64,000 nucleotides of DNA from assembly GCF_000466385.1 (NCBI RefSeq), contig NZ_KE952665.1:14673-78672 (forward strand), read 5' to 3'. Under the pieces are notes generated by a model that was given only the letters and a program-made list of their open reading frames with translations, was not told the DNA's origin and did no database searches. The position numbers and the translations under genes are program-made. The stretch is from Aneurinibacillus aneurinilyticus ATCC 12856 (GTDB lineage: Bacteria > Bacillota > Bacilli > Aneurinibacillales > Aneurinibacillaceae). Of the stretch, positions 1,992 to 14,567 are shown one piece after another (positions within the stretch are counted from its first letter, which is position 1; each line of letters opens with the position of its first letter).

Positions 1992-3422
1992 ATGGACTGG
2001 GATATAGCGCATATCATTTATGCGTTAGGTGCTATCACCGTCGTGATGGCGATGCTTTTTCGCAAAGGAGTTATTATTCCTTCACTCGTTACTACCTTTC
2101 TGCTGGGTTGGGCGTATAAAGGAGGATTCGGCGAAGGAATTATAGCAGGATTGGCTGCGATTTACAACGCAAACATCATGGCGGCAAAAGAACTATTCAG
2201 CATTATTTTGCTTATTGCGTTCATGGTGGGAATGTTGAATGCACTCAAAGAGCTTGGTGCTGATCGAAAGATGATTGCGCCCATCCAGAGAATTATGGTA
2301 AATGGACATGCGGCTTACTGGATTTTATTCATAGCTACGGCATTGTTATCTACCGCATTCTGGCCCACACCAGCCGTTCCGTTGGTTGCAGCTGTATTAA
2401 TACCAGTTGCGCTGCGGGTCGGATTGCCACCAATGGGTATTGCTATCGCAATTACGCTGGCAGGACAAGGAATGGCACTGTCAGCCGATGCATTGATGCA
2501 GGTAGCACCAGCACTGTCTGCAAAGGCAGCCGGGATGCCTCAATTGTCGGAAGCAATATGGATAAAATCAATTATACTCACGTTAATTGTTGGTGGCGTA
2601 GCAAGTATTATCTCATATGTCCGTATCGCTAAAACGATTAAGAAGCCGAAAGGGCAAGGGCAGCTGGATGAATTGGACGAGAAGTATTTTGAAGAAGGCG
2701 AGGCAGAAGCCGCTGCTACGCTAGAGTTTATGCCCCAAAAAGAATCAGGGGTCACCGCAACTTTTTTCGCTATCTTTACTATCGTCATGTTTCTGCTTGA
2801 TATTGTCGCGATGAGTATGTTTGATATTAAAGGTGGAGATGCTGGGGCATTAATCGGAGGAACTGCAGCCATTATTATGCTTGTGGCAACAATTGTTAGG
2901 CACAGGGGAGAGGCATTCGAAGAAATCGGAGAGCGGCTGACTGAAGGGTTTGGCTTTGCCATTAAAATTATGGGATCTATCATTCCGATTGCTGCCTTCT
3001 TCTTTCTAGGTGGACAGGAGCATTCTACTGCTGTATTCGGTGAAGGGGCACCAGGGTTTCTGTTCGATATTGTAGAAGGGATGCAGGCTTATATCCCAAG
3101 CAATGAGTTTATCGCCGCCTTCGGCGTGCTGCTTGTAGGCATTGTGTGCGGGATTGACGGCTCCGGATTTGCCGGTCTGCCAATTACCGGAGCTCTTGCC
3201 GGCGCGTTATCACACGGGACAGGCATCGATACGTCGATGCTGGCAGCAGTGGGGCAGATGGGCTCCATTTGGTCTGGAGGCGGTACGTTTATCGCGTGGT
3301 CATCGCTCATTGCTGTTGCTGCGTTCGTCGGTGTTTCCCCGATTGAACTGGCACGAAAGAACTTTTTGCCCGTTATGATCGGACTTATCCTTGCTACCAT
3401 ACTTGCTGTTGTTATTTGGTGA
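1992..3422 (+). CDS. Multi-pass permease, ion-transporter superfamily-like
   Basis: A 476-residue, very hydrophobic protein with about eleven or twelve predicted membrane segments, and a charged cytoplasmic loop near residues 215-245 rich in Glu/Asp/Lys. Small-residue-rich segments such as the SAFWPTPAVPL and GIDGSGFAGLP stretches resemble the re-entrant loops of ion-transporter superfamily carriers (GntP, DcuC, citrate and Na+/H+ antiporter relatives). I infer uptake of an organic anion or amino compound. Operator O1 in its leader places it in the GntR regulon, so it is the likely importer of the pathway substrate. The ATG at 1992 follows GGAGGGG. It is convergent with yyaC and shares a terminator with it. 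Exact family not identified. Confidence 0.75.
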   Translation: MDWDIAHIIYALGAITVVMAMLFRKGVIIPSLVTTFLLGWAYKGGFGEGIIAGLAAIYNANIMAAKELFSIILLIAFMVGMLNALKELGADRKMIAPIQRIMVNGHAAYWILFIATALLSTAFWPTPAVPLVAAVLIPVALRVGLPPMGIAIAITLAGQGMALSADALMQVAPALSAKAAGMPQLSEAIWIKSIILTLIVGGVASIISYVRIAKTIKKPKGQGQLDELDEKYFEEGEAEAAATLEFMPQKESGVTATFFAIFTIVMFLLDIVAMSMFDIKGGDAGALIGGTAAIIMLVATIVRHRGEAFEEIGERLTEGFGFAIKIMGSIIPIAAFFFLGGQEHSTAVFGEGAPGFLFDIVEGMQAYIPSNEFIAAFGVLLVGIVCGIDGSGFAGLPITGALAGALSHGTGIDTSMLAAVGQMGSIWSGGGTFIAWSSLIAVAAFVGVSPIELARKNFLPVMIGLILATILAVVIW

Positions 3423-3434
3423 GTAAGCAGACGA

Positions 3435-3480
3435 AAAGCCGTTGGATAGTGGATTACACCACATGGTCAGCGGCTTTTTT
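3435..3480. terminator. Terminator shared by permease and yyaC
   Basis: AAAAGCCG pairs with CGGCTTTT and is followed by Ts. The right arm lies inside the 3' end of yyaC. Confidence 0.6.
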
Positions 3481-4020
3481 GACGTTCTTTTCGATGAGTG
3501 CCGATGCATTAAATAAGGCTGTAGCGATTGTTTTAGCCATATTGCGTACCGACTTTTCATTCGCATTTTGCAGCATCATATAGTTGTAAGGACCAGTTGT
3601 ATTTACAATGCCTTTGATATGAATATCGCCTATTTGAGGAAGTGACTTTTTCATGCTGTTGCCGGGAAAAAGGGGCCCTTCTACCAATTGAATGTAGCCG
3701 ATATGGTGTAGGTGGCCAAGGGAAGCGTCAATTGCCACAATAAACGGATCAGTATATTTTTCATAGATTTCCTGCATCGTATCCTGTAGATTCAAGGCGT
3801 GTACTGGCTCCTTAATTGTGCCGTAAATATGTGTATTTTTAAGCTCGCTGTCCTGAAGCAATGTGCCTATCATCGGTCCAAGCGCATCACCGCTCGCTTT
3901 AATGGTTCCGATGCAGACGAATACAAGAGGTCTTTCTCCGGCTGTCCTGAATAGAAGTGTCAGGCTGTTACATAAATGGACAGCGGCGTTTCTTTCTTTA
4001 TAATGCATTTGTATAATCAC
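3454..4020 (-). CDS. yyaC: Sporulation protein YyaC, spore-protease-like
   Basis: 188 residues, matching the YyaC family, which has the fold of the germination protease Gpr. The family signature is visible: a FVCIGT strand, then SGDALGPMIG, YGTIKEPVHALNL, and a VAIDASLG segment with the conserved Asp. In Bacillus the family is linked to sporulation; its substrate is not firmly known. The GTG start at 4020 is preceded by GGAGAG at good spacing. Monocistronic, divergent from the creatininase-family gene and convergent with the permease, so it interrupts the GntR regulon. Confidence 0.88.
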   Translation of the reverse strand: MIIQMHYKERNAAVHLCNSLTLLFRTAGERPLVFVCIGTIKASGDALGPMIGTLLQDSELKNTHIYGTIKEPVHALNLQDTMQEIYEKYTDPFIVAIDASLGHLHHIGYIQLVEGPLFPGNSMKKSLPQIGDIHIKGIVNTTGPYNYMMLQNANEKSVRNMAKTIATALFNASALIEKNVKKAADHVV

Positions 4021-4147: not shown

Positions 4148-4151
4148 TTAT

Positions 4152-4166
4152 GGTATACAATATACA
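4152..4166. promoter_or_regulatory. Predicted GntR operator O2
   Basis: GGTATACAATATACA, one mismatch from the perfect palindrome O1, directly after the predicted -10 of the creatininase-family gene. Confidence 0.7.
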
Positions 4167-4207: not shown

Positions 4208-4963
4208 GTGAATATATATGATTTACAGCAAATGACCTGGCCAGAAATTAAGGAGGCATTGGAGCGGGCAAGACTAGCGATTGTACCGATTGGAGCGCAT
4301 GAGCAGCATGGACCGCATATGGTAGAAAGCTGCGATGCTGTTCTAGCGAAGAAAATGGCAGACAGACTGGCTGCACGGCTTCATCCGCTCACTGTCGTCG
4401 CTCCCGCAGTCACAATGGGCGTATCGCCACACCATATGAACTTTCCAGGCACCATTTCGCTGCAGCCGGAAACGATGGTAAGCCTGCTAAGGGATATTAC
4501 CTCCTCATTAAAGTATCATGGCATTGTGAACTTTCTCTGGTTAAATGCGCATGGAGGCAATCAATCTACATTATCGATTGCTTGTCAGAAGTTGAGCGTT
4601 GAGCTGGATGTAACGATTTATTATGCAAAAACGACGGCAAGTGCAAGCGAGGTTTATAAAGAGCGTATTTCTTCCTCACCGTTTGGTCATAGTTGCGAGC
4701 GGGAAGTATCTGAAGCGTATTATCTGGCACCAGAATTGCTGAGGAAAGAATGTTTGCAGCAGGGACAATTAAATGAAAATCCCCGTTGGCGTCATCTGCG
4801 TCCAGGTAATCCGCTTCAGGGATTTTATCGTTATGAGGAGATGACGGAGAATGGATGTATCGGAGATGCCACACAGGGCAGCTATGAGCTTGGCGAAAAA
4901 ATTGTCGAGACAGCGCTTGATCGGCTGGAAGAGGAGATCCGTTTTTTGCTGTACGCACAATAG
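4208..4963 (+). CDS. Creatininase-family metal-dependent amidohydrolase
   Basis: 251 residues, normal for the family (creatininase, MftE, ArfB), whose members hydrolyse cyclic or N-formyl amides or cleave peptide ends with two divalent metals. Visible metal-site motifs: PIGAHEQHG with Glu32 and His34, the conserved Asp43 of the ESCDA segment, NAHGGN with His115, and GHSCEREVSEA with His161 and Glu164, which corresponds to the HAG-E-ETS motif. The GTG start at 4208 follows AGGGAGG. The gene has its own promoter and operator O2 and is the only gene of its unit. In this regulon it probably opens an amide or removes a formyl group from an intermediate; the true substrate is unknown. Confidence 0.85.
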   Translation: MNIYDLQQMTWPEIKEALERARLAIVPIGAHEQHGPHMVESCDAVLAKKMADRLAARLHPLTVVAPAVTMGVSPHHMNFPGTISLQPETMVSLLRDITSSLKYHGIVNFLWLNAHGGNQSTLSIACQKLSVELDVTIYYAKTTASASEVYKERISSSPFGHSCEREVSEAYYLAPELLRKECLQQGQLNENPRWRHLRPGNPLQGFYRYEEMTENGCIGDATQGSYELGEKIVETALDRLEEEIRFLLYAQ

Positions 4964-5036: not shown

Positions 5037-5054
5037 AAAAGCAAGAAAAAATTT

Positions 5055-5069
5055 GGTATACAATATACT
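5055..5069. promoter_or_regulatory. Predicted GntR operator O3
   Basis: GGTATACAATATACT, just after the predicted promoter. Its centre is 94 bases from the centre of O4, which would allow looping. The leader between them (5073-5131) can pair AGAGC with GCTCT and GTCTGT with ACAGAT. Confidence 0.7.
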
Positions 5070-5148
5070 AAAAGAGCGAGTCTGTATGTTCTGTTAAACT
5101 AGAAGCGAGACAGATTAAAAGGACAAGCTCTACTTCTTTCGCCAATTT

Positions 5149-5163
5149 GGTATACAATATACA
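5149..5163. promoter_or_regulatory. Predicted GntR operator O4
   Basis: GGTATACAATATACA, ending at the ribosome binding site AAGGAGG of the gene at 5178. A protein bound here would block elongation or loop to O3. Confidence 0.7.
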
Positions 5164-5177
5164 AGGAGGAATGAATT

Positions 5178-5888
5178 ATGGCTGAATTAATGGACAAGGA
5201 AGTATTTCGTGAGAAGCTGGAGGCAGCGGTAAAAGGCAACAGCAGTGAGGTTGCTCCGTTTACAAACGCATGGGCTGAAGGACAATTAACGCGCGAGCAG
5301 TTCGCAAAATGGGTAGAACAGCATTATCACTATGTTGGACCGTTCGCAGATTACCTAGGGTATATGTACTCCAATTGTCCGTATGAGGATGCGAAGGATT
5401 TCCTCCTGCAAAACATGTGGGAAGAAGAGCTGGGGGGAGATCGTCATACCGATTTGCTCATCCGCTTTGGTGAAGTATGCGGCACGACGCGCGAGCAGGT
5501 TGAAAATCCGAATAACATGTTGGCGACGACACTGGGATTGCAGAGCTGGTGCTATGCGATGGCTATGCGTGAAAACTTCATTGTCGCAACCGCAGCGCTT
5601 ATCGTTGGCCTCGAATCGCAGGTTCCGGGCATTTATCGTAAGCAGACGCCGACCTTACGTGAGAAGTATGGATTTACTGACCATGAAATCGAATTCTTCG
5701 ACCTGCATATTGTTTCTGATGAAATCCACGGAGAGCGTGGCTATCAAATCGTCCTGAAATATGCGGATACCCCGGAGTTGCAGGATCGTTGCCTGAAGGC
5801 GGTACAAAAAGCAACAGAAATGCGCCGGATGTACATCGACGGTATTTATCGCGCTTTTGTAGATGAAAAACCGTACGCTACATTATAA
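5178..5888 (+). CDS. Heme-oxygenase-like diiron oxidase/oxygenase (PqqC/CADD-like)
   Basis: 236 residues, all-helical, of the TenA/PqqC superfamily. Automated tools may call it thiaminase or PqqC, but it carries the six-ligand set of heme-oxygenase-like diiron oxidases: Glu83-x6-His90 (EEELGGDRH), Glu146 (GLESQVP) and His177-x3-Asp181-x2-His184 (HIVSDEIHG). The spacing of the last triad equals that which I recall for Chlamydia CADD. Known members (UndA, BesC, SznF, CADD) use O2 to cleave C-C bonds, oxidise amines or remodel amino acids. First gene of an operon running to about 11243 with promoter, O3 and O4 upstream. The ATG at 5178 is 8 bases after AAGGAGG. A ferredoxin of the same regulon (14250) could supply electrons. 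Substrate unknown; the fold and metal site are a confident inference, the reaction is not. Confidence 0.82.
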   Translation: MAELMDKEVFREKLEAAVKGNSSEVAPFTNAWAEGQLTREQFAKWVEQHYHYVGPFADYLGYMYSNCPYEDAKDFLLQNMWEEELGGDRHTDLLIRFGEVCGTTREQVENPNNMLATTLGLQSWCYAMAMRENFIVATAALIVGLESQVPGIYRKQTPTLREKYGFTDHEIEFFDLHIVSDEIHGERGYQIVLKYADTPELQDRCLKAVQKATEMRRMYIDGIYRAFVDEKPYATL

Positions 5889-5987: not shown

Positions 5988-7445
5988 GTGACGATAACTG
6001 CAGGCATAAAAATCTATCATAACTTAATCGATGGTCAATGGGTGGAGCCTTCTACGGGTCAATATTTTGAAAGCATAAACCCTGCCAATATTGATGATTG
6101 CGTAGGGAGATTTCCGGCTTCTGATGCAGCGGATGCACAGCGGGCTATTGCTGCCGCGCGTCAGGCGCAAAAAGATTGGGCGAAGTACCCTCCATCGAAG
6201 AAAGCGATCATCCTCTACAGGGCTGCCGATTTATTGGAAGAAAGAGCCGAGCAATACGGACGGGAATTGACCCGAGAAGAAGGAAAGGTGCTGGCGCAAG
6301 CGGTAATGGAAGTGCAACGCTCAGCGCAAACGCTACGCTATTACGCTTCTGAAGGATTGAATGTAGCTGGCCAGACATTACCTACTGATGACGGAAGCTT
6401 GCTCTATACGAGACAAGAACCTCTTGGTGTTGTCTCTGTAATTACACCATGGAATTTTCCTATTTCGATTCCTGCACGTAAAATTGCCCCTGCTCTGGTG
6501 ACAGGTAATACAGTTATTTTTAAACCAGCCTCTGATACACCGCTTGCCGGACTGCGTCTTGCAGAATGTTTGCATGAAGCGGGATTGCCTGCTGGTGTGC
6601 TGAACTTCATTACAGGTTCCGCAGGGAAAATTGGAGACATTCTTGTTTCGCATAAGGAGATTAATGCAGTTACGTTTACAGGTTCTACACATGCAGGGGC
6701 ACAAATCCATAAAAATGCTTCATTCAGGACGCGCCTTCAGCTTGAATTAGGTGGAAAAAATCCTCTTATTGTAATGGATGATGCTAATGTAGAGCAAGCG
6801 GTACAGATGACGATTGCCGGAGGCTTCAGCTTAACAGGGCAAGCATGCACAGGAACGAGTCGTGTATTTGTGATGGCAGCGATATATGACACATATGTCA
6901 AGCAGCTTGTAGAGGCGACAGAGAAGCTTACTATCGGTAACGGTCTGGATGAAGGAAACAAGCTGGGACCGCTCGCTAATGAAAATCAATTGCATAACGT
7001 GCTTGCATATGTGGAAAGTGGCAAGGCAGAAGGAGCCACGCTTCTTATTGGCGGTGAACAATTAACGGCAGGAAATTTGGGCAAAGGCTATTACGTATCG
7101 CCGGCTATATTCGTCGATGTGCACCCGGAGATGAAGATTATGCGTGAAGAAATTTTTGGTCCGGTTATCGGTGTACAGAAGGTTTCTTCATTTGATGAAG
7201 CACTGGCATTGGCTAATGATACGGAGTATGGATTAGCGGCAGCGATTTGTACATCTGATGAGAGTACAGCAACCCGATTTACTGAACAAATCGAGGCTGG
7301 TATGGTAAAAGTCAATAAACCGACAACGGGTGTTGCATATAATGCGCCATTCGGCGGCATGAAAAATTCCAGTACGGCCACTTACCGCGAGAGCGGACGT
7401 GATGCGCTAGGCTTTTATGTCCAGACCAAGACAATATATCGATAA
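5988..7445 (+). CDS. Aldehyde dehydrogenase, 2,5-dioxovalerate/semialdehyde type
   Basis: 485 residues. Motifs: PWNFP with Asn156, FTGST, LELGGKNP with Glu253, and GFSLTGQACTGTSRV with catalytic Cys287. The last segment is characteristic of alpha-ketoglutaric semialdehyde (2,5-dioxopentanoate) dehydrogenases such as YcbD/GucD, so a semialdehyde substrate is likely but not proven. GTG start at 5988, 7 bases after AAGGAGG. It lies 99 bases after the diiron-oxidase gene with no strong terminator between (an imperfect GC hairpin at about 5911-5940 may attenuate), so the two are probably co-transcribed. It is a different subfamily from the aldehyde dehydrogenase at 198, which suggests two different aldehydes. 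Confidence 0.9.
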   Translation: MTITAGIKIYHNLIDGQWVEPSTGQYFESINPANIDDCVGRFPASDAADAQRAIAAARQAQKDWAKYPPSKKAIILYRAADLLEERAEQYGRELTREEGKVLAQAVMEVQRSAQTLRYYASEGLNVAGQTLPTDDGSLLYTRQEPLGVVSVITPWNFPISIPARKIAPALVTGNTVIFKPASDTPLAGLRLAECLHEAGLPAGVLNFITGSAGKIGDILVSHKEINAVTFTGSTHAGAQIHKNASFRTRLQLELGGKNPLIVMDDANVEQAVQMTIAGGFSLTGQACTGTSRVFVMAAIYDTYVKQLVEATEKLTIGNGLDEGNKLGPLANENQLHNVLAYVESGKAEGATLLIGGEQLTAGNLGKGYYVSPAIFVDVHPEMKIMREEIFGPVIGVQKVSSFDEALALANDTEYGLAAAICTSDESTATRFTEQIEAGMVKVNKPTTGVAYNAPFGGMKNSSTATYRESGRDALGFYVQTKTIYR

Positions 7446-7511: not shown

Positions 7512-7985
7512 ATGCGGCAAGTGCTACAGTTAGAGCTAGAAGAAGCGAAGGTCATGATTGAAGCGGCACGGAAAAAGGCGGAGGAAATTGGCGTGCTGGA
7601 GACGATTTGCATTGTGGATGGCGGCGGTTATGCGATTGCGCTAGAGAGAATGAACGGCTCCCGTATTACCGGGGTAGAAATATCGCTGGCCAAAGCGTTC
7701 ACAGCATCCGGACATAAGCGTTCCACACACTTATTTAATAAAGAAGGAGGACCGGCAGCCGTCGGAGGTGAAGCTTTCGGTATTCAACAGATGATTCCGG
7801 GCAAGTTCGCTATTTTTGTCGGAGGCTTTCCTATAGTAGTGAACGGAGAGGTCATAGGCGGAGTTGGCGTCAGCGGAGGAAATGGTGAGCAGGATACAGC
7901 GGTTGGTGTCGCCGCACTCGAAGCACTACAGAATTATCTGGGTAATGAATTCGAAGTTCTGGTACAGGCTGATATCAAAAAATAA
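7512..7985 (+). CDS. GlcG/HbpS family protein (PF03928-type)
   Basis: 157 residues covering the whole GlcG/HbpS/PduO-C domain: an N-terminal helix, the CIVDGGG strand-turn, a KAFTASGHKRST helix, a PGKFAIFVGGFPI strand and the closing GGVGVSGG motif. The family includes heme-binding HbpS of Streptomyces and small proteins found in glycolate and diol operons; the role of most is unknown. The ATG at 7512 follows GGGAG. It sits between the semialdehyde dehydrogenase and the MFS transporter in the operon. It might bind or carry an intermediate, or bind heme; neither can be told from sequence. Confidence 0.85.
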   Translation: MRQVLQLELEEAKVMIEAARKKAEEIGVLETICIVDGGGYAIALERMNGSRITGVEISLAKAFTASGHKRSTHLFNKEGGPAAVGGEAFGIQQMIPGKFAIFVGGFPIVVNGEVIGGVGVSGGNGEQDTAVGVAALEALQNYLGNEFEVLVQADIKK

Positions 7986-8026: not shown

Positions 8027-9502
8027 ATGGCACAGCCGTTGGTCAAACCGCATGGCGTGGTTCCCCCTCAGCGGACCGGTGCACGAGCGGCGGAATTAAA
8101 TCGCATGTTGCTGGCAATTTGCCTGGGGGCCTTTGTTTCCCATCTGACAGCAGGGATTGTCAACATTGCACTACCGGGGCTTTCTGCTACCTTTCAACAG
8201 GATATCTCCCTTATGCAGTGGGTTGCTTCCGGTTATCTGCTCGTTATCGCCGCCCTTCTGCCGATGATGGGAAAATGGGGAGATCGGTTTGGAAACAGAA
8301 GAATACACAATATAGGGTATATTATTTTCGGCCTTAGTTCGCTCCTGACTTTATTTGCAAATACGATATATGGCCTGCTTTTGCTTCGGGTTATTCAAGC
8401 ATTCGGCGCCGCTATGTTTCAGGCGACGAATATCGGACTCGTTAGTCGCTACTTTCCCGCTGAATCACGTGGACGGGCACTTGGATTCGTGAGCACTGCG
8501 GTTGCCCTTGGGGCATTAAGCGGTCCGATGATTGGCGGACTGATTATGGATTGGCTGAATTGGCACTGGCTATTTCTTATACATGTACCGGTGCTGGTCA
8601 TTGCCACCCTTCTTGCGTTCCGCTATATTCCAGCCGATCCGCCGGGAGCTGCACATACGCCGGATTGGGTCGGCGGGATATTGTTCGCAGTTGGTATCGT
8701 CGCATTTATCTTTAGTATTTCTAACGGAAATGCATGGGGATGGACCTCGTATGGTATTATGTTCACATTCGCTCTCAGCCTGCTGGCGCTTGCTGGATTA
8801 TACTGTTGGCTTGGTAGGCGCGTTAGACGAAAGCGGGAGCCGTTCATTAATGTATCCTTATTTGCAAAACCGACGGTTTTGGCCGGTATGTTTGTTGGAT
8901 TGACTACGTTCATCGCTGTGTTTGCTACACAAGTGACCCTTCCGTTCTATTTGCTAGGAGTGCGGCATTTTGCTCCGACGCAGGCCGGCATGATGATTAT
9001 GATGTATCCGGTTGCGTTAGGAATTATGGGACCGATTAGTGGCTCGCTATCCGATAAGCACGGGTCGTCAAGAATTACTATGATAGGACTTATCTTCATG
9101 TCTGGATCGCTTATTTTCCTATGTTCCATTGGCAATCAAACGCCAGTAAGCCTGCTCGCCCTTGGTCTGCTTGGCCTTGGTGCTGGGATGGGAATGGTTA
9201 CATCACCGAATTATAGTTTAATTATGGGAAGTGTTGATAAAAGCAATCTTGGCGCTGTCGGAGGGCTAGTGGCACTGGTACGCAATTTGGGATTGGTAAT
9301 CGGAACGGCAATGGGCATTGCCCTTTTGGATTATGCATTTCCTGGCTCCATTTCAAGATGGATGGCAACAAAAGAAGTAGCTTATGCGCCTTATGTAGTC
9401 TCAGGTCTGCGAACCGTATTTATGATATCATTTGCATTCTGCTTGCTTGGCATTTTATTTTTACGGCTTGCACTGCGGAGGCGGGCCCTGCAAGCAAAGT
9501 AA
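8027..9502 (+). CDS. MFS transporter, DHA2 (EmrB/QacA) type
   Basis: 491 residues with about fourteen predicted membrane segments. The cytoplasmic loop-2 motif appears as GKWGDRFGNRR, and the segment-5 motif typical of drug:H+ antiporters as LGALSGPMIGG. Members export drugs or metabolites or, less often, import substrates, using the proton gradient. It starts 41 bases after the GlcG-like gene in the same operon. In this catabolic setting it may export a toxic intermediate or move the substrate; the second transporter of the regulon is at 1992. The sharp basic C-terminus is normal. Confidence 0.88.
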   Translation: MAQPLVKPHGVVPPQRTGARAAELNRMLLAICLGAFVSHLTAGIVNIALPGLSATFQQDISLMQWVASGYLLVIAALLPMMGKWGDRFGNRRIHNIGYIIFGLSSLLTLFANTIYGLLLLRVIQAFGAAMFQATNIGLVSRYFPAESRGRALGFVSTAVALGALSGPMIGGLIMDWLNWHWLFLIHVPVLVIATLLAFRYIPADPPGAAHTPDWVGGILFAVGIVAFIFSISNGNAWGWTSYGIMFTFALSLLALAGLYCWLGRRVRRKREPFINVSLFAKPTVLAGMFVGLTTFIAVFATQVTLPFYLLGVRHFAPTQAGMMIMMYPVALGIMGPISGSLSDKHGSSRITMIGLIFMSGSLIFLCSIGNQTPVSLLALGLLGLGAGMGMVTSPNYSLIMGSVDKSNLGAVGGLVALVRNLGLVIGTAMGIALLDYAFPGSISRWMATKEVAYAPYVVSGLRTVFMISFAFCLLGILFLRLALRRRALQAK

Positions 9503-9519
9503 AAAATGGGGGGACATCA

Positions 9520-9706
9520 TGGGGGATGAACAGATGTTTAACGTTTTTTTCGAGCCGGTATGCTAGGCTATGGCAGCGGACTTTTGATGCTCCCGCTCAT
9601 CCATGTGGAAGCCGTAAAACGGTACCCTTGTTATCAGTTCTTCCTTGCTTTATGGTGCTGCGTTCTTGCCATAAGGTTGTGAATTTGCACAGCATCCAGT
9701 AAGCTT
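9520..9706 (+). pseudogene. Decayed 5' fragment of a TauE/SafE-like permease gene
   Basis: The 234-base gap between the MFS and gntR genes reads as a broken membrane protein. An ATG at 9520 opens a frame that stops after 15 codons. Adding one T to the seven-T run at 9544-9550 joins it to a frame encoding RAGMLGYGSGLLMLPLIHV, which fits the TauE/SafE motif G-x-x-G-x-G-x-G...P. A second shift near 9620 gives a further hydrophobic stretch (GTLVISSSLLYGAAFLP) and then a stop. Only about 60 codons of a roughly 250-codon family remain. Family assignment rests on one motif. Confidence 0.4.
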
Positions 9707-9736: not shown

Positions 9737-10414
9737 ATGCAAGCTGACACATGGGCAAAAGAAGAATTAAGCCCTATACGGGATAAAGTGTATCGCTATA
9801 TTAAAGAAATGATTTTGAACGGCGAATTGGTGGCAGGTGAGCGAATTGTGGAGCGTGAGTTGGCAGATAAACTTAATATTAGTCGCACACCGATTCGCGA
9901 AGCGCTTTTTCGCTTAGAATCTCAAGGCTTCGTAAAAACACTCCCCCGCAAAGGTGTGGTTGTCTCGAAAATGACCACAGAAGAAATTATTGAAATTTTT
10001 ACGATTTTATCCTCGCTGGAAAGCCTTTCAGTTAAGCTGGCCGCCAACAAAGTAACAGAGGAAGAAAAGATTCAGCTTGCCGACCAGATTAAAGAAATTG
10101 ATAAATTATTGGAGCGAACGGATTTGGATACGAAGCATCTTACTGATTTACACGTCGATGTGAACGAAACGATCTATAAGCTGGCGAGAAGCCCGCGTTT
10201 ATATGAAATGCTACACAGTCTGCTTGAATATATTCAGGCATTCGCAACAGTTGGACAGGAAGTGCCAGGCAGGTTACGCAAGTCGCTTGAAGAGCATCGC
10301 GCTATTGCGCTTGCAGTACAGCATGGGGACAGTGAATTGGCCGAACATCTGGCGAAAATCCATATTGCCAATTCAAAGGCAGCGTATCTTGAAGCGCTGC
10401 AAATGGAGTCATAG
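9737..10414 (+). CDS. GntR family regulator, FadR/FCD subfamily
   Basis: 225 residues. The N-terminal winged helix (about 10-75) has the classic GntR run IVERELADKLNISRTPIREAL; the C-terminal all-helical FCD ligand domain (about 80-215) has conserved Asp/His positions including HVDVNETIY and EEHRAI, which bind metal and a carboxylate effector in this family. ATG at 9737 after AAGGAGG. It is encoded inside the operon whose promoter carries O3/O4 and is the only GntR protein in the window, so it is the likely binder of the seven GGTATAC palindromes, probably as a repressor released by a pathway carboxylate. It may autoregulate through O3/O4. Confidence 0.92.
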   Translation: MQADTWAKEELSPIRDKVYRYIKEMILNGELVAGERIVERELADKLNISRTPIREALFRLESQGFVKTLPRKGVVVSKMTTEEIIEIFTILSSLESLSVKLAANKVTEEEKIQLADQIKEIDKLLERTDLDTKHLTDLHVDVNETIYKLARSPRLYEMLHSLLEYIQAFATVGQEVPGRLRKSLEEHRAIALAVQHGDSELAEHLAKIHIANSKAAYLEALQMES

Positions 10415-10441: not shown

Positions 10442-10720
10442 ATGAGCAACAAAATTAAAGTGGAATTTTGCCAGAACAACGTAAACCGCCATGCCTCTTC
10501 ACGGCATGCTCTTGCGTTCGTGAAGGAGCATGTGTCTGAGGATACAGTGCATCTGGTAGAGATGAAATGCGGAGGAATTTGCGTTGCTTGCAAGATGAGT
10601 CCCTATGCACTAATCGATAAAAAGTATGTAACGTCCCTTGATGCGGAGGAATTTTTTCAACGGTTTAAAAAAGAGCTGGAAAAACAAACAGCGGCGGCTA
10701 TGGCCAGGAAGGCGATATGA
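10442..10720 (+). CDS. DUF1450 (YuzB-like) small cysteine protein
   Basis: 92 residues. It resembles the DUF1450 family of Bacillales: an N-terminal strand ending VEFC (Cys10), then MKCGGICVACKMSPYALID with Cys43, Cys47 and Cys50. The cysteine spacing suggests metal or Fe-S binding, as in thioredoxin-like ferredoxins, but this has not been shown for the family to my knowledge. It starts 27 bases after gntR, with ATG after GGGAGG, and ends one base before the RidA-family gene, so the three are co-transcribed. Family members are usually free-standing; its place in a catabolic operon is unusual. Confidence 0.75.
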   Translation: MSNKIKVEFCQNNVNRHASSRHALAFVKEHVSEDTVHLVEMKCGGICVACKMSPYALIDKKYVTSLDAEEFFQRFKKELEKQTAAAMARKAI

Positions 10721-10721
10721 G

Positions 10722-11243
10722 ATGCACATTGAAAAAAGGCTGGCGCTTTATGGTATCGAACTGACGGATTGTCCGGATATTACCAAATCGTACATTACGT
10801 CAACGACTGACAAATATCATGTATATGTTAGCGGAATTCAGGTGCATTGTCCTAGCAATCTATTCCATGAAGGCCATATTATTGGTAAGCAATTATCCAC
10901 GAAATGGTTAGAAGCGTGCGCACGCCGCAGTCTTGCAAATCAGTTAAGTATGCTAAAGCGCATTGTTGAGGATTTAGATATAGTCGACCATATTATTAAA
11001 ATGGTTTATTATATTAACGGTATTGGGACGAAAGAAGATTGGAGACAGGTAACAAAGGAAACAACGGATATTATGCGAGAAGTATTCGGTGAGGCAGGCG
11101 ATTGTGAAATATGTACAATTGCACCTGTTCCACTACCTCCGGGCCAGCCGGTACAGATCGATCTTCTCGTTTCCTTGCCATCTTCGCCGCGTTCGAACTC
11201 TTTACACGTATGTGAAGGAGTAAAAGGCAATGGATCATTTTAA
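10722..11243 (+). CDS. RidA/YjgF family protein (imine/enamine deaminase-like)
   Basis: 173 residues. It has the longer RidA-family layout (the group that starts ERL...GIELP and ends PVEVE-IV): MHIEKRLALYGIELTD, a VSGIQV strand, an ARRSLANQLSMLKRIVEDLD helix, VYYINGIG, and VFGEAGDCEICTIAPVPLPPGQPVQIDLLV. RidA proteins hydrolyse reactive enamines/imines to ketones and ammonia; some relatives are 2-aminomuconate deaminases. The canonical Arg of RidA, normally before the SAVG-like strand, is not obvious here (GDCEICTIA replaces the usual RSAVG), so activity may differ. ATG at 10722, one base after the DUF1450 stop. Last gene of the operon. Confidence 0.78.
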   Translation: MHIEKRLALYGIELTDCPDITKSYITSTTDKYHVYVSGIQVHCPSNLFHEGHIIGKQLSTKWLEACARRSLANQLSMLKRIVEDLDIVDHIIKMVYYINGIGTKEDWRQVTKETTDIMREVFGEAGDCEICTIAPVPLPPGQPVQIDLLVSLPSSPRSNSLHVCEGVKGNGSF

Positions 11244-11251
11244 TTTTATAT

Positions 11252-11266
11252 GGTATACAAAATACA
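11252..11266. promoter_or_regulatory. Predicted GntR operator O5 (downstream of RidA gene)
   Basis: GGTATACAAAATACA, identical over 16 bases with O6, but in a convergent 3' region and directly ahead of a terminator, with no downstream gene on that strand. It may be a relic, a roadblock, or an extra loop anchor. Confidence 0.5.
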
Positions 11267-13275: not shown

Positions 13276-14091
13276 TTATACGCCTATCACAAAAGGATTC
13301 GTATACTGGCGTAACACTTTAACAATACTCATTGCGACAATGTATCCTGTTTTTGGATTGTGTGCTGAAGGGGTGTTTTGTAGGGATAGTTTAATTCTTC
13401 CGGCGAATCCTTCGACAATAATTTGATGTGTATTCCGTGTAATGGTAGGGTCCACATATACTTGGACATGTGTATTTTCAAATCCGATTCCTGCCAGACT
13501 CAAGGCTGCGGATACATTGACACTTTCGGGAAAAAGCAACGCCGATTCGTTAGCCGTTCCGTTAAAAATGAGAGTTGGTTCAGATACGGCAGAAAGTTCT
13601 ACCTTTTCTTCCGCGAATGTGCCATACCAGGCGACTGGAGGCTTACGCGTAATCAGTTCGATACGATCGATTTCTTCAAGAGTCATGGCACAAATACGGT
13701 CCAATCCACCGATAGCAGCGGAAGGAACGAGCAGTTGAGTATGGTATTGTGCTGCAGTAGCCCGTAATTCTTTCAATACATTTGCTTCGGCTAGTGCCCC
13801 GATGCTTGCCACGATGAAGGAAGCGTGACGGAGCGCGCGCACCCCGTATGTTTTTACGGCTGTATGTCCGGCTGCTTCTACAATAATATCCATATCCTCG
13901 GCAAAGAACGCGTCCTCATCTGATGTAATAAGGCAGGAAGCAGGCAGACGATAATCCCGGGATTCATTGCGGACAAGTGCGGCTTTTACTTCGATCTGTT
14001 CAGCATAGCGTTCCATGCTATATGACGCGACAGCATGTCCGATAGTACCAAGGCCGATAATTCCGATTTTAATCGCATTCAATCTTTTCAC
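13276..14091 (-). CDS. nadX: L-aspartate dehydrogenase family protein (NadX/DUF108)
   Basis: 271 residues, two domains as in the family: an N-terminal Rossmann fold with GIIGLGTIGHAV, then the DUF108 domain with PSAAIGGLD, ITRKPP, FNGTANESALLFPESVNVSAALSLAG, DPTITRNTHQI and NPKTGYIVAMS. Members convert L-aspartate (or a relative) to iminoaspartate with NAD(P)+, or run in reverse. Iminoaspartate is a natural RidA-type substrate and RidA lies in the same regulon. Operator O6 ends just before the gene. The GTG at 14091 is the longest start; a TTG at 14082 has a better-spaced AGGTAGGTG. Not next to nadA/nadC here, so a catabolic role is more likely than NAD synthesis; the amine substrate may not be aspartate itself. 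Confidence 0.85.
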   Translation of the reverse strand: MKRLNAIKIGIIGLGTIGHAVASYSMERYAEQIEVKAALVRNESRDYRLPASCLITSDEDAFFAEDMDIIVEAAGHTAVKTYGVRALRHASFIVASIGALAEANVLKELRATAAQYHTQLLVPSAAIGGLDRICAMTLEEIDRIELITRKPPVAWYGTFAEEKVELSAVSEPTLIFNGTANESALLFPESVNVSAALSLAGIGFENTHVQVYVDPTITRNTHQIIVEGFAGRIKLSLQNTPSAHNPKTGYIVAMSIVKVLRQYTNPFVIGV

Positions 14092-14100
14092 CTACCTAAT

Positions 14101-14115
14101 TGTATTTTGTATACC
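14101..14115. promoter_or_regulatory. Predicted GntR operator O6
   Basis: On the minus strand GGTATACAAAATACA, directly after a TATACT -10-like box and before the nadX start. Confidence 0.65.
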
Positions 14116-14173
14116 AAAAGTATATAAAAAAAGTGTGAATAATACTAGTTCAAATTGTAAAATATTAAATTTT

Positions 14174-14188
14174 AGTATATTGTATACC
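14174..14188. promoter_or_regulatory. Predicted GntR operator O7
   Basis: On the minus strand GGTATACAATATACT, identical to O3. It overlaps the likely -10 region of the ferredoxin promoter (TTGTAA at 14155, 17-base spacer). Centre is 73 bases from O6 in this divergent promoter. Confidence 0.65.
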
Positions 14189-14249
14189 AAAAGTGAAGTA
14201 TGTATGATATAGTTGGAATAATTAGAATACGAAAGGCAGGGAACAGAGG

Positions 14250-14567
14250 ATGCAAAAAATTGATTTCAAAACTAGTGGCAAAAAATTAGAGGTTTCTAAA
14301 GAATCAAATCTATTGCGCATGTCGATTCGTTACGAAGGTGGTATTCCCTATAAATGCGGGGGCGGCATTTGCGGTACATGCGTTGTAAAAATTGATGATG
14401 GAGCACAGAACTTGAGCAAAGTAAGCAAGAAGGAAGTCGAGAGATTGGGTGAAGACCTGATTGCTCAAGGGTATCGGCTTGCATGCCAAACGTTTGTTAA
14501 TGGAGATGTAGAATTGAACTGGGAAGAGAACCCGATCCGTCCGAAACGTAAAGCCGCTGCAAAATAA
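14250..14567 (+). CDS. Plant-type [2Fe-2S] ferredoxin
   Basis: 105 residues. The cluster ligands are Cys36, Cys41, Cys44 and Cys79 in the pattern C-x4-C-x2-C-x34-C (YKCGGGICGTC ... ACQ), the plant/vertebrate fold. It ends in a basic tail (PKRKAAAK). Small electron carrier in the cytosol. Divergent from nadX, with operator O7 over its promoter, so it belongs to the GntR regulon. In that regulon the obvious electron sink is the predicted diiron oxidase at 5178; no dedicated ferredoxin reductase is visible in the window, so a housekeeping reductase would be needed. ATG at 14250 after an AAAGGCAGGG ribosome site. Confidence 0.9.
   Translation: MQKIDFKTSGKKLEVSKESNLLRMSIRYEGGIPYKCGGGICGTCVVKIDDGAQNLSKVSKKEVERLGEDLIAQGYRLACQTFVNGDVELNWEENPIRPKRKAAAK

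Follow-up and report, generated by a model that had tools for sequence, protein, structure and literature searches.

Background

Dipicolinic acid (pyridine-2,6-dicarboxylate) is a small molecule packed in bacterial spores, and its breakdown is reportedly started by DipD, the catalytic component encoded in the dip cluster of Alcaligenes faecalis JQ135. In the study of Mu et al. (2022, AEM 88:e00360-22), the components besides DipD are reportedly a heme-binding protein (dipF), a ferredoxin reductase (dipG) and ferredoxins (dipJ, dipK and dipL), and dipicolinic acid reportedly undergoes an 18O2-derived hydroxylation to give 3-hydroxydipicolinate. The same study is said to have found DipD to be unlike any known oxygenase and the dip cluster to occur widely among alpha-, beta- and gammaproteobacteria. 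Much earlier work on dipicolinate oxidation, by Arima and Kobayashi in 1962, reportedly described both 3-hydroxydipicolinate and alpha-ketoglutarate.

The known heme-oxygenase-like dimetal enzymes (HDOs) make natural products or cofactors. A 2026 review describes the characterized HDOs as biosynthetic and states that no HDO investigated to date requires a protein effector; it notes a redox partner only for MboA (MboB), and DipD, dipicolinate and ferredoxin are not mentioned in its text (PMC13108848). CADD, one of the closest solved structures discussed below, requires a sacrificial tyrosine (Tyr27) and an amine-donor lysine (Lys152) (PMC11965152). We describe here an HDO gene and its surroundings in a 64,000-nucleotide stretch of Aneurinibacillus aneurinilyticus ATCC 12856, referred to as the window.

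The oxygenase gene and its predicted dimetal site

The HDO gene lies at 5178-5888 on the forward strand and encodes a protein of 236 amino acids, as judged from the open frame, homology and a structural model. It is a real gene, since a good ribosome-binding site (AAGGAGG) stands directly 5' of the ATG and orthologues are present in related genomes: 88-99% identical within the same genus and family (96% in Aneurinibacillus danicus, 88% in A. tyrosinisolvens) and about 70% identical in many other Bacilli and in proteobacteria. The initial annotation had named six metal ligands in the protein, E83, H90, E146, H177, D181 and H184, all of which we found at exactly these positions. Its claim of a heme-oxygenase-like dimetal pattern is borne out by the ligand alignment, by conservation in the family and by the fold.

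When the protein was shuffled 20,000 times, only 3 shuffles matched the full spaced pattern, making a chance origin unlikely; homology is better evidence for the ligand set than this shuffle test. The six residues align with those of CADD (E83=E81, H90=H88, E146=E142, H177=H174, D181=D178, H184=H181) and also pair with six equivalent residues of NePabS. They are invariant among 16 orthologues from Bacilli, gamma- and betaproteobacteria (67-96% identity). In a wider alignment of 23 sequences, which takes in five distant homologues including relatives only 23-29% identical, five ligands do not vary and conservation of D181 is 90% or higher. The Pfam family Haem_oxygenas_2 (PF14518) matches the protein with an E-value of 6.6e-39.

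Structure prediction, which had been suggested as a check, yielded an AF2 model with a mean pLDDT of 93.2 and a pTM of 0.89. Its top match in the PDB is the Fe/Mn form of CADD, 8va9 (TM 0.83 by query and 0.92 by target; rmsd 1.7 A), and other fold matches include PqqC, UndA, BesC, HrmI and FlcD. The stretch from E83 to H90 is the least confident part of the modelled core (block pLDDT 73). As the ligands align to those of CADD, the six predicted side chains probably converge at one site.

Predicted membership of the HDO enzymes is thus well supported by alignment and model together. The description 'diiron oxidase' in the initial annotation holds as far as the dimetal HDO class is concerned, within which diiron and Mn/Fe sites are indistinguishable from sequence. 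It had also expected standard annotation to miss the enzyme. This proved only partly right: Pfam uses the family name 'Iron-containing redox enzyme' and PGAP calls the Caballeronia orthologue an 'iron-containing redox enzyme family protein'. Two further PF14518 proteins in the source genome (contigs C86 and C100; loci L002 and L003) lack the H-x3-[DEH]-x2-H motif and are no close kin of the HDO.

A gene cluster under a common operator

Upstream of the HDO gene, on the same strand, lie a permease of an unnamed family (1992-3422; 476 amino acids), recognized as an open frame that recurs across loci, and a creatininase-family amidohydrolase (4208-4963) identified by Pfam, with its ExH(x8)D and HGGN metal motifs intact. 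Downstream, again on the forward strand, follow an aldehyde dehydrogenase (ALDH2; 5988-7445) with the catalytic cysteine (GQAC) and ELGG present, an HbpS/GlcG-like 'heme-binding' protein (7512-7985) assigned by Pfam and neighbourhood, and, all by Pfam, an accessory, lineage-specific MFS transporter (8027-9502), a GntR/FCD regulator (9737-10414) and a DUF1450 protein with four cysteines (10442-10720), which occupies the position taken by the second 2Fe-2S ferredoxin in other genomes. A RidA-like gene (10707-11243) has a weak Pfam match and resembles the RidA genes of other loci. An L-aspartate dehydrogenase-family enzyme (AspDH; 13276-14091, reverse strand) and a 2Fe-2S ferredoxin (FdxA; 14250-14567, forward strand), our proposed electron donor to the HDO, complete the set. 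The nearest NCBIfam model for ALDH2 is alpha-ketoglutaric semialdehyde dehydrogenase, with a score below the cut-off; the AF2 model of the permease, built from six sequences, had a pLDDT of 42, too low for use.

The sequence TGGTATACAATATAC occurs at seven sites in the window, each with at most one mismatch and each in or beside the cluster; 0.09 sites were expected with up to two mismatches allowed. Two copies precede the HDO gene (5054-5068 and 5148-5162, forward strand), the second just before its ribosome-binding site. Others are found upstream of the permease gene (1847-1861, forward), upstream of the creatininase-like gene (4151-4165, forward), twice between the AspDH and ferredoxin genes (14102-14116, with one mismatch, and 14175-14189, both reverse) and downstream of the RidA-like gene (11251-11265, forward, one mismatch). 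Across the 5.3-Mb genome, sites with at most one mismatch are confined to this region. Furthermore, all 26 genome loci, that of the gammaproteobacterium Saccharospirillum among them, have an operator-like site no more than about 200 nt 5' of the HDO gene, frequently as the full palindrome TGGTATACAATATACCA; in beta-type loci the gene is preceded by related sites built around a GTATAC core. The HDO gene therefore belongs to a regulon marked by a common TGGTATACAATATACCA-like operator, to which the GntR/FCD protein would presumably bind.

An importer, an oxygenase, ferredoxins, a reductase, an aldehyde dehydrogenase and an amino-acid dehydrogenase under one regulator look catabolic. The initial annotation did not see this context, which we consider the more informative part and which points to catabolism; from it we infer ferredoxin dependence, a catabolic role and the function of each later enzyme. 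The protein shares the heme-oxygenase-like fold and the 3-His/3-carboxylate motif with UndA, BesC, HrmI and other characterized HDOs, whose roles are biosynthetic, whereas here ferredoxins accompany the enzyme in a seemingly catabolic regulon.

Several minor features of the cluster were also observed. The operator copy at 11251-11265 has no obvious gene to control, and a half-site like it takes the same relative place in locus L016 (10354). The DUF1450 gene with four cysteines (10442-10720, forward) is limited to the window and loci L016, L017 and L018, and these four lack the second 2Fe-2S ferredoxin and the small conserved protein (HYP109) of other clusters; it is possible that the DUF1450 protein replaces an electron carrier. 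Between the permease and creatininase genes lies a YyaC-family (spore protease-like) gene (3454-4020, reverse strand), an arrangement also seen in about 20 loci of Bacilli; a neighbor connected with spores in this way would be in keeping with dipicolinate as substrate.

Likeness to the dip cluster and candidate pathway

In Cupriavidus and Caballeronia the genes run HDO-ALDH-HbpS-reductase, with an additional group ferredoxin-small protein-ferredoxin; the first series would fit dipD-E-F-G and the second dipJ-K-L, and this fit points to a DipD-like identity. Gene set and order appear to match those reported for the JQ135 dip cluster, where the neighbors are likewise a regulator, a heme-binding protein, a ferredoxin reductase and ferredoxins; in the betaproteobacterial orthologue loci the order is apparently the same. 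Two differences should be mentioned: the dip cluster is reported from proteobacteria only, while the HDO cluster also occurs in Bacilli, and the Bacilli clusters carry a creatininase gene and, mostly, AspDH and RidA genes, with no linked reductase seen. We assign a probability of about 0.7 to the reading that the window protein is DipD-like, probably a DipD orthologue, and forms the oxygenase part of a catabolic dipicolinate system. By the same analogy dipicolinate would be its substrate, and the cluster is most likely a catabolic operon for the use of dipicolinic acid by spore-formers and proteobacteria. A literature search by enzyme names found nothing relevant on this operon.

The pathway may be pictured as follows. 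The permease would bring in the substrate, and the HDO would hydroxylate dipicolinic acid to 3-hydroxydipicolinate, with O2 activated at the 3-His/3-carboxylate dimetal site. Electrons would reach it from the 2Fe-2S ferredoxin or ferredoxins of the operon, themselves reduced by the adjacent ferredoxin reductase in proteobacteria and by an unlinked reductase in Bacilli, and the HbpS-like protein would be an accessory component. Purely by conjecture, ring opening in later steps might leave an N-acyl enamine. The creatininase-like amidohydrolase, a RidA-like imine hydrolase, the aldehyde dehydrogenase and AspDH or the ornithine cyclodeaminase-family enzyme (OCD) would then convert the cleaved product to central metabolites and ammonia; more tentatively, the first three would yield alpha-ketoglutarate and ammonia. 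The GntR regulator would switch the regulon through its TGGTATACAATATACCA-like operators. A dedicated ring-cleaving dioxygenase was not found in the HDO clusters, which counts against this picture of the route after hydroxylation.

The same ferredoxin-dependent catabolic HDO might instead act on another nitrogen-containing substrate, such as a different carboxylate of pyridine or pyrrole, or a compound resembling an amino acid that is broken down to aspartate or glutamate. AspDH/OCD, RidA and aldehyde dehydrogenase would fit any pathway ending in an imine and a semialdehyde, and an Arthrobacter cluster that encodes a flavin monooxygenase, an amidase, an aldehyde dehydrogenase and a Rid protein contains a permease 36% identical to that of the window. 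Against this stands the unusual set of partners (heme-binding protein, reductase, ferredoxins and an atypical monooxygenase), which matches the dip cluster as reported, and we regard a different substrate as rather unlikely. The Arthrobacter cluster itself, on a plasmid of Arthrobacter sulfonylureivorans (locus L071, 12556-24633), further comprises a flavin reductase and an adenylate-forming enzyme, its monooxygenase being of the LLM type; it looks like another cluster for catabolism of a nitrogen heterocycle. Azetidine-2-carboxylate, imidazole-acetate, hydroxyproline and picolinate, also considered on the basis of the gene set, would be purely conjectural rivals as pathway substrates.

If the DipD-like reading is true, DipD is a heme-oxygenase-like dimetal oxygenase of a multicomponent, catabolic kind, and spore-formers too possess dip-type clusters. 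Recognition of a large group of HDOs, spanning phyla and with linked ferredoxins in a catabolic regulon, would assign DipD to a structural class and offer a mechanism open to testing (a dimetal site and ligand mutants), aromatic ring hydroxylation would join the reactions to test for the HDO scaffold, and dipicolinate breakdown, as a spore-related sink for carbon and nitrogen, would extend to spore-formers themselves. Such a group of HDOs, probably including DipD, catabolic, multicomponent and carried by spore-forming Bacilli, is not found in the 2026 review (PMC13108848). At about even odds, we may go further and hypothesize that the HDO is a pyridine-ring monooxygenase that needs ferredoxins, the HbpS-like protein and mostly a small non-ferredoxin protein, that it is convergent with the soluble diiron monooxygenases, and that spore-formers use it to recycle spore dipicolinate.

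Other assignments within the fold

Two alternatives would place the protein outside a catabolic dimetal system. It might be a metal-free enzyme like PqqC or TenA, both of which share its fold, with an incidental ligand set: TENA_THI-4 (PF03070) also matches (E-value 6.7e-12) and PqqC is among the fold matches. However, the PF14518 match is much stronger, and invariance of the six ligands in orthologues of 67-96% identity argues against an incidental set. PqqC and TenA are metal-independent, and PqqC, said by the initial annotation to lack the ligand set, indeed retains one of six, its aligned residues being H84, G93, E147, S178, Q182 and D186. We consider this reading very improbable. PqqC identity was rejected on these residues and on a TIGR02111 score of 47.5 bits (cut-off 240), and TenA (thiaminase II) identity on a TIGR04306 score of 19.3 bits (cut-off 130).

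The other alternative, a self-sacrificing p-aminobenzoate synthase of the CADD/NePabS type, acting in folate biosynthesis, has in its favor that CADD (CT610) and NePabS are the nearest solved structures by sequence, and CADD by fold, that all six ligands are shared, and that the CADD family model TIGR04305 matches weakly. Yet the score, 102.4 bits, is about half the NCBIfam cut-off of 200, and in alignments to both proteins the sacrificial Tyr27 of CADD is replaced by Thr29 and the donor Lys152 by Gln156, the latter invariant in the 16-orthologue alignment; with both residues missing, the score below cut-off and a different conserved neighbourhood, catabolic in composition, we reject this function as very improbable.

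Distribution of the cluster

Most of the window gene set was found again in 26 genome loci, with the permease, ALDH2, HbpS, GntR, ferredoxin and AspDH/OCD genes recurring in Bacilli, gamma- and betaproteobacteria; an HbpS-like gene lies near the HDO gene at every locus examined. Among the Bacilli, carriers are Aneurinibacillus, Paenibacillus, Brevibacillus, Cohnella, Ammoniphilus and Melghirimyces. In Bacilli, the surroundings of the HDO genes yielded no ferredoxin reductase gene, and the window likewise holds the HbpS-like gene and one 2Fe-2S ferredoxin with no linked reductase; in the proteobacterial orthologue loci heme-binding protein, reductase and ferredoxins are all linked. In the Cupriavidus and Caballeronia clusters the reductase is added and AspDH gives way to an OCD-family enzyme, a layout shared by two further Cupriavidus-type loci, and one more proteobacterial locus has a reductase-type cluster without OCD. 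Since creatininase and AspDH are found in Bacilli and Saccharospirillum, and OCD instead in betaproteobacteria, the lower pathway may differ between these groups.

Orthologues of at least 69% identity were detected in 10 of 151 relatives, counting the source genome itself. One of 369 genomes in a gammaproteobacterial class sample carries an orthologue, as do 4 of 398 in a Pseudomonadota sample (at least 67% identity). The gene is present in 81 of 399 genomes sampled from the family that holds Cupriavidus, a sample with no recognizable Alcaligenes; in two of these (G1153 and G1163) the positions match those of the Cupriavidus EM10 and CH34 matches. The permease occurs in 7 of 72,556 plasmid records, and in six of the seven the HDO is present as well. 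High identity across phyla combined with patchy presence suggests horizontal transfer. In a midpoint-rooted tree, several forks of which are weak, the proteobacterial HDO sequences nest among those of Bacilli.

The smallest form of the cluster, in a proteobacterium (locus L079, 9629-11387), consists of HDO (48% identical), HbpS and GntR genes only; over the 20 kb read there, no recognized ALDH2, ferredoxin or permease of the HDO gene set was found, and this reduced cluster possibly acts on a different substrate. A small conserved protein of about 100 amino acids, with hardly any cysteine, is encoded beside or between the ferredoxin genes (for example, L021, 15684-16013, a copy with no Pfam match, and L043, 14078-14428, reverse strand) and is a candidate coupling protein of the oxygenase. 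Finally, many Bacilli carry paired short genes of the chromate-transporter (ChrA) family inside the operon (for example, L021, 12968-14082; L018, 12797-13899; L016, 7629-8779), of which the window retains only a 27-amino-acid remnant match at 9545-9625.
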